NCBI GenBank assembly: GCA_902602695.1
Contig: CACKRO010000004.1
Span: 1-64,000 of the forward strand
DNA: 64,000 bases
From: an uncultured Alphaproteobacteria bacterium
Lineage (GTDB): Bacteria > Pseudomonadota > Alphaproteobacteria > HIMB59 > GCA-002718135
Direction of reading: 5' to 3'
Shown: in pieces, positions 29,667-32,840 of the stretch
How the letters are laid out: each line of letters opens with the position of its first letter
Position numbering within the stretch: the first letter of the stretch is position 1
Program-made: the position numbers and the translations under genes
The notes under the pieces: generated by a model
Seen by the model: the letters and a program-made list of their open reading frames with translations, nothing else
What the model was told of the DNA's origin: nothing
The model's database searches: none

Positions 29667-31097
29667 CTACACGTCGTAGTATAGTTTAAACTCGTGTGGA
29701 TGAGGTCTAATATTAATTGGGTCAACCTCACTCTCTTTTTTATAGCTAATATAAGTTTCAATTACATCTTTGGTGAATACATCACCCTCTAATAAAAATG
29801 CATGATCTTTTTCAAGAGCCTCAAGAGATTCAGCTAAAGATCCAGGCGTAGATTGAATTTTAGACAAAACTTCATCGCTAGCAGCATAGAGATTTATATC
29901 TGTTGGATCACCAGGATTAATTTTATTTTTAATTCCATCTAATCCTGCCATTAACATTGCTGAGAATGCTAAGTATGGATTTGCACTTGGATCTGGACAT
30001 CTAAATTCCATTCTTTTTGCCTTAGGGCTTTGAGAATAAGCAGGAATTCTAACAGATGCAGTTCTATTTCTTTGAGAGTAAACAATGTTCACCGGAGCCT
30101 CAAAGCCTGGGACCAATCTTTTATAAGAATTAGTAGTAGGAGCGCAAAAAGCTAAAAGAGCAGGTGCATGTTTAAGTATACCGCCAATATAATTTAGAGC
30201 TAAATCACTTAGGTTAGCATAGTTACCCTCTTTATACATTAATGTATCACCGTCTTTCCAAACACTTTGATGAACGTGCATACCTGAACCATTATCTTCG
30301 AATAAAGGTTTAGGCATAAATGTAGCTGTCATTCCATGTTGTCTAGCAACATTTTTAACTACATACTTATATTTCATCATATCATCAGCCATTTTCAATA
30401 AAGGTGAAAACTCTAAATCAATTTCACATTGTCCACCTGTTGCAACTTCATGGTGATGTGCCTCAACAGTTAAACCAATGTCTTGCATTGTCATTACCAT
30501 TTCAGTTCTAACATCTTGAAGTGTATCTACTGGTGGAAGAGGAAAGTAACCCTCTTTATGTCTTGGTTTATGACCCAAGTTTGGATTTTCATCTGTACCA
30601 CTATTCCAGGTACCTTCTACTGAATCAACTTCATGAAAGGCAAAGTTAGAACCCGAGTCAAACTGAACATTATTAAAAACAAAAAATTCTGCTTCTGGAC
30701 CAAAAAAAGCAGTATCTCCAATTCCAGAAGATTTTAAATAAGCCTCCGCTTTTTTGGCAATGTTTCTTGGATCTCTTGAGTAATCTACCAAAGTTACTGG
30801 ATCTTTAATATTACAATGTATAGCAATTGTCTTTTCAGAAAAGAATGGGTCTATGTAAGCCGTGCTTGCATCTGGAATCACTATCATGTCACTGTCTTGA
30901 ATTTCTTGAAAACCTCTCACTGATGATCCATCAAAACCAAGTCCGTCTGAGAAAGTGTCTTCATCTAAAAATTTAATTGGAATTGTAAAATGTTGTGTTG
31001 TACCTGGTATATCAGTAAAGCGTATATCCGCCATTTTAATATCCATATCTTTAATTTCAGACATTAAATCTTTTGGAGTCGAGCTTTTTAATTTCAT
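29667..31097 (-). CDS. glnA: Glutamine synthetase type I
   Basis: '[22 protein letters not shown]', '[13 protein letters not shown]', '[14 protein letters not shown]', '[39 protein letters not shown]'. Confidence 0.98.
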
Positions 31098-31112
31098 ATC
31101 TATCTCCTAACT

Positions 31113-31144
31113 TCAACAAAAAGGTATGCCTTCCAGCTATACCT
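31113..31144 (-). promoter_or_regulatory. Candidate expression-platform hairpin in glnA leader
   Basis: Minus strand AGGTAT-AGCTGGAAGGC-ATACCT followed by TTTTTGTTG; competes with an alternative CCAG-GTATAG-CTGG hairpin. Confidence 0.45.
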
Positions 31145-31182
31145 GGTTAAATCATGCTCTAGTTATGAAATCCGCTTTTTAA

Positions 31183-31240
31183 TGCGCGTTCCTTCAGCAA
31201 GTGGCCTACTTCCGACCTATTAAAATAGGTTGAACGATTT
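31183..31240 (-). ncRNA. Glutamine riboswitch aptamer (glnA RNA), glnA-proximal copy
   Basis: Minus strand ATCGTTCAACCTATTTTAATAGGTCGGAAGTAGGCCACTTGCTGAAGGAACGCGC: CGTTC/GAACG P1, ACCTAT/ATAGGT P2, conserved GGAAGTAGG and GAAGGAACG. Confidence 0.85.
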
Positions 31241-31251
31241 ATAACTTTTGC

Positions 31252-31305
31252 ATGCGTTCCTTCGGCACAATGCCTACTTCCGACTCTAAAAGAGTTGAAC
31301 GATTA
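31252..31305 (-). ncRNA. Glutamine riboswitch aptamer (glnA RNA), glnA-distal copy
   Basis: Minus strand AATCGTTCAACTCTTTTAGAGTCGGAAGTAGGCATTGTGCCGAAGGAACGCATG: same architecture with P2 ACTCT/AGAGT and P3 GGC/GCC. Confidence 0.88.

Positions 31306-31344: not shown

Positions 31345-32840
<1,496 letters not shown>

Follow-up and report, generated by a model that had tools for sequence, protein, structure and literature searches.

Tandem glutamine aptamers before glnA in an uncultured alphaproteobacterial genus that appears to lack GlnD-type sensing

The 64,000-nucleotide stretch of DNA analysed here (hereafter the window) comes from an uncultured alphaproteobacterium and carries, on the minus strand ahead of glnA, two related repeats that a first-pass annotation read as a tandem glutamine riboswitch. 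GlnD, which a review calls ubiquitous in proteobacteria, is a protein that reads glutamine, and Tyr51 in the T-loop of PII is the uridylylation site (PMC4285133). The locus raises the question of whether the two repeats are glutamine aptamers and, if so, what part an RNA sensor would play in the nitrogen control of this lineage.

Two RF01739 aptamers in the glnA leader

A search of the window against Rfam with cmscan found two matches to RF01739, the glnA RNA, both on the minus strand. The features of the locus are as follows.

31345..31686 (-): PII signal protein gene with a remodelled T-loop (Pfam P-II, 116 bits)
31347..31363 (-): terminator-like hairpin at the end of the PII gene (pattern scan, 1 found against 0.2 expected)
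31251..31303 (-): aptamer 1 (RF01739; cmscan 64.3 bits, E 6e-12)
31237..31254 (-): inter-aptamer linker L, CATGCAAAAGTTATAAAT, complementary to P (sequence; L:P duplex test)
31183..31238 (-): aptamer 2 (RF01739; cmscan 60.9 bits, E 5e-11)
31153..31172 (-): conserved element P, GATTTCATAACTAGAGCATG, after aptamer 2 (conservation; pairing tests)
31122..31144 (-): hairpin H, AGGTATAGCTGGAAGGCATACCT, between P and the ribosome-binding site (folds, sequences)
31104..31108 (-): Shine-Dalgarno sequence AGGAG of glnA (sequence)
29667..31097 (-): glnA, type I glutamine synthetase, 476 aa, start codon at 31097 (TIGR00653, 663 bits, cut-off 429)

Both aptamers score well above the RF01739 gathering score of 35 and are full length, with all positions of the model (1-53) aligned. 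Each contains P1, P2 and P3 together with the conserved CGGAAGTA and GAAGGAACGC; the genes found downstream of RF01739 are nitrogen-assimilation genes (glnA, amtB), and the leader holds two aptamers, an arrangement expected of a cooperative tandem riboswitch. The cooperative or steeper glutamine sensing that the first-pass annotation read from this arrangement may follow from it. The Infernal search with the Rfam glnA model that the first-pass annotation had proposed was therefore positive for both copies, and the observation of tandem RF01739 aptamers before glnA is confirmed. Re-reading the sequence also bore out the earlier description of three motifs (AATCGTTCA, TCGGAAGTAGG and GAAGGAACGC) and of two P2 stems that differ from each other (ACTCT/AGAGT in one, ACCTAT/ATAGGT in the other). 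The two minus-strand copies stand, but their sizes, given as 54 and 58 nt with a gap of 11 nt, become 53 and 56 nt with a gap of 12 nt by the Rfam boundaries; a P1-to-P1 count gives a linker of 18 nt. The alphaproteobacterial host that had been assumed agrees with the named carriers of the same architecture, which are Alphaproteobacteria. No match to RF01704 (Downstream-peptide) was found by cmscan in the window, where tRNAs were the sole further RNA families in the Rfam search.

The aptamer pair lies about 86 nt 5' of glnA, behind the PII gene. The terminator-like hairpin that closes the PII gene makes it probable that riboswitch and glnA share a transcript with its own start. Hairpin H differs in sequence between lineages, yet folding predicts a hairpin in each.

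Riboswitch-linked genes and the absence of GlnD

The genome from which the window comes (1.28 Mb in 35 contigs, 74% complete) has five aptamers in total at three loci, two before glnA, two before amtB and one before a CP-ATP-grasp/Alpha-E/transglutaminase operon, where a contig end cuts the first aptamer partner. The genus to which it belongs is alphaproteobacterial and probably falls in AEGEAN-169/SAR11 subclade V, outside the HIMB59 family, which is the sister family used here for comparison. RF01739 was present in 36/37 genomes of the genus, with 2 to 8 aptamers each, versus 0/24 genomes of the sister family. The sole genus genome with no RF01739 match is a doubtful negative, as no close glnA was recovered from it either (G015).

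We collected 88 loci, among them the two further loci of the genome that holds the window, so that the window locus brings the number to 89. By pattern, 83 of the 88 have two aptamers, one has an aptamer beside a second copy truncated at a contig end, and the remaining four are single, all of them before a divergent Amt. The spacing between aptamers is 16-18 nt in nearly all tandem loci. The genes that follow the aptamers in the 89 loci are glnA (28), amt-like genes (40) and CP-ATP-grasp genes (20), with one unassigned. A genome can have up to four riboswitch leaders: that of glnA, one or two of amtB and that of the CP-ATP-grasp/Alpha-E/transglutaminase operon.

This distribution bears on whether the aptamers have a function at all. 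Chance matches or decayed aptamers would be at odds with scores of 61-64 bits, with recurrence before the same genes at conserved spacing in 36 genomes, and with P2 stems that differ in sequence and still pair. Conservation refutes this explanation, and we give it practically no weight.

Two further features of these leaders were observed. The single aptamers found in some members of the genus (L029, L054, L101 and L105) lie ahead of a divergent gene that resembles an ammonium transporter (about 33% identical), and these leaders have a different downstream hairpin beside the ribosome-binding site. The CP-ATP-grasp leaders have, after the riboswitch and ahead of the main start codon, a short and variable ORF (near 8090-8040 in L006, and in homologous loci such as L033 and L040), whose translation may be coupled to that of the operon.

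In Burkholderia cenocepacia under nitrogen limitation, NtrC activates glnA, glnB and a DUF404/407-DUF403-transglutaminase cluster (PMC5491218). This cluster is the same operon type as the CP-ATP-grasp/Alpha-E/transglutaminase operon. By analogy, the riboswitch gene set resembles an NtrC regulon, which supports a takeover of nitrogen control and also argues for expression of these genes at low glutamine.

GlnD (TIGR01693) was found in 0/37 genomes of the genus versus 24/24 genomes of the sister family. It is absent too from a genus genome that is 96% complete and has eight aptamers (G221), and incompleteness of individual genomes can hardly account for all 37 absences. GlnE was found in 0/10 genus genomes versus 3/4 sister-family genomes. 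A comparison of PII sequences with those of the sister family and of a further alphaproteobacterial family (f10) found the T-loop altered in the genus, without the ELYRGAEY uridylylation site, whereas both comparison families keep G(R)QKGHTELYRGAEY..DFLPK in the T-loop. The gene block clpX-clpP-tig-PII-glnA is common to the window and to one single-contig genome of the sister family, which we take to be HIMB59 itself; there the PII-glnA spacer is 44 nt long without an aptamer, and glnE follows glnA.

GlnD and riboswitches do not strictly exclude one another, because family f10 (GlnD in 3/4 genomes, one single aptamer each) and 5/20 of the other riboswitch carriers have both. These gene contents suggest that glutamine sensing by protein has been lost from the genus, and riboswitch RNA probably fills the place of the GlnD branch in nitrogen control. 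Taken jointly, the identity as a tandem glutamine riboswitch, the regulon and the replacement of GlnD sensing form a reading that we hold with good confidence on comparative sequence evidence.

The linker, element P and the sign of control

The linker L (CATGC-A(2-4)-GTTAT...) and the element P that follows aptamer 2 (ATA(A/G)CTA..GCATG) are mutually complementary, and P is conserved before glnA, amtB and the CP-ATP-grasp genes. Across 38 distinct L/P combinations from 115 loci, many of which are close relatives, the L:P duplex has a mean energy of -9.9 kcal/mol versus -3.5 kcal/mol with shuffled L. Nearly every pair is standard when the two are in register; when one partner of the 6-bp block is slid by 1-3 bases, 17-37% remain. 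In the L:P core no compensatory changes were found, and variation was one-sided (A-U to G-U). Hence the case for the L:P helix rests on kept complementarity and position, and amounts to strong conservation of complementarity, short of proof by compensatory change. A tandem pair in TMED109 (L266) has a 63-nt linker with a perfect hairpin and keeps the CATGC and GCATG elements.

In the glnA leader the start codon region offers P a second complementary stretch (TATGAAAT with ATTTCATA). This pairing has a mean energy of -7.7 kcal/mol with the gene's own start region versus -3.7 kcal/mol with random coding windows, and -4.3 to -4.7 kcal/mol with the start regions of the other gene classes. The corresponding duplex energies make the pairing of P with the start weakly specific in the CP-ATP-grasp leaders and hardly better than random windows in the amtB leaders. 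A general anti-start role of P across all gene classes was accordingly rejected for amtB.

We propose the following mechanism. Each aptamer would fold into the known glutamine-binding structure, and glutamine binding would refold the leader and change the output of glutamine synthetase. P would have the linker as one possible partner and, in glnA, the start codon region as the other; glutamine binding would shift the choice and so alter access of the ribosome to the glnA start. Both ligand binding by this RNA and the switch between the two pairings of P are inferred. Translational control by P is suggested by its complementarity to the glnA start codon region, and we give it an even chance.

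Intrinsic termination was considered as a mode of control and rejected. A T run comes after hairpin H in some glnA leaders but is lacking in other glnA lineages and in the amtB leaders; furthermore, a pattern scan found no terminator-like hairpin between aptamer 2 and glnA.

The sign of control could take either direction. We lean towards high glutamine lowering expression (OFF), because the gene set matches the nitrogen-starvation type. Conversely, glutamine may raise expression if bound aptamer 2 and the linker:P helix free the start region from P. This helix is conserved and encloses aptamer 2, and when aptamer 2 is forced to fold in models of the amtB and CP-ATP-grasp leaders, linker:P pairing goes up and P:start pairing goes down, with an ON tendency in the CP-ATP-grasp and some amtB leaders. 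The experimentally tested glutamine riboswitches of cyanobacteria also raise expression with glutamine, at least as a review summarises them (Klahn 2018, reviewed in PMC6316151). In the glnA models, however, forced folding of aptamer 2 favours start-codon pairing and it is folding of aptamer 1 that favours linker pairing. An ON switch would moreover place glnA and amtB under positive feedback from their own product, and the gene set fits a nitrogen-starvation (NtrC) regulon. On balance we regard ON control as possible and somewhat doubtful.

A different alternative takes the linker and P as a rigid scaffold for the two aptamers and nothing else, with control exerted for example by Rho-dependent termination or mRNA decay. 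This would suit amtB, where the linker:P helix dominates every modelled state and hence would not switch; it fits poorly with the glnA leaders, in which the match of P to the gene's own start region is specific and holds across lineages, and we consider it unlikely. Deriving the sign from folding was set aside as an approach, as forced-aptamer ensembles and folding of the growing transcript gave no consistent answer.

The data can also be joined into a wider and more tentative model, to which we give somewhat less than an even chance. In one lineage RNA may have replaced protein for the whole of glutamine sensing. GlnD would have disappeared along with the uridylylation site of PII, and tandem riboswitches with a conserved inter-aptamer helix would have taken over the former NtrC-type regulon of glnA, amtB and the CP-ATP-grasp operon, the linker acting as switching strand and the aptamer pair as one unit. 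The model provides a concrete hypothesis for why aptamers are retained in pairs.

Comparison with known systems

A scan of species genomes found the RF01739 class in many marine Alpha- and Gammaproteobacteria. SAR86 and other Gammaproteobacteria have one to three aptamers in series (L249, L267, L272, L291, L300, L306, L314 and L319), SAR86 two or three. Some gammaproteobacterial aptamers precede a glutamine synthetase of another type, which is about 25% identical to GlnA and looks like type II, and single ones precede glutamate synthase-like genes (gltB- and gltD-like starts, by eye; L260 and L263). A CP-ATP-grasp gene follows a glutamine riboswitch in several lineages (L006:4850-8037 on contig C23 of G000; L114-L117; L250, L262, L298, L302 and L309). 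These riboswitches are tandem in the genus, where the operon includes Alpha-E and transglutaminase genes, and single in family f10 and its relatives; the homologue in L302, a SAR86-named carrier, is 39% identical. This poorly understood operon is thereby tied to glutamine status in several lineages. Among the matches listed, at least 120 stretches of IMG/VR viral contigs have glutamine aptamers (L125-L204), mostly single, with a few tandem at linkers of 6-9 nt, and often before short proteins of unknown function. Glutamine riboswitches are already known from phages of SAR11 and OM43 (PMC9004378).

Marine sequences had already yielded RF01739 in 2010, along with tandem copies and the link to glnA and ammonium transporter genes (Weinberg 2010, PMC2864571); tandem occurrence, which the first-pass annotation had given as known, is therefore established. 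A later review describes glutamine riboswitches as restricted to cyanobacteria, where they are common, and takes the links to glnA, PII and amt from environmental or uncultured sequences only (PMC6316151). The aptamer class, the tandem copies and the glnA association are thus known, and the genus setting is new; the regulon, the GlnD loss and the pairing of the linker with the element after aptamer 2 go beyond the first-pass annotation. The leaders described here are like the type 1 glnA RNA in the full-model match, the glnA or amt genes downstream and the tandem copies. They differ from its description in that their host genus is alphaproteobacterial, nearly all occur as pairs, and the Rfam model does not cover their conserved linker and its partner element. 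The Downstream-peptide or type 2 glutamine riboswitch (RF01704) shares the ligand and a related core (PMC2864571, PMC6316151), whereas the window matches RF01739 instead.

The glnA/amt-riboswitch link can now be placed in a defined alphaproteobacterial lineage, where it goes with GlnD loss. Tandem glycine riboswitches have two aptamers for the same ligand in series, joined by a short linker. They are a precedent for more digital control (PMC2864571) and resemble the glnA leader in the serial same-ligand aptamers, while ligand and fold differ. The GlnD-PII-GlnE/NtrBC system likewise responds to glutamine inside the cell and governs glnA together with related genes of nitrogen metabolism; it differs in being a protein cascade, the GlnD of which was not found in the 37 genomes of the genus. 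The two sister families thus offer a natural comparison, within one order, of protein and RNA sensing of the same metabolite.
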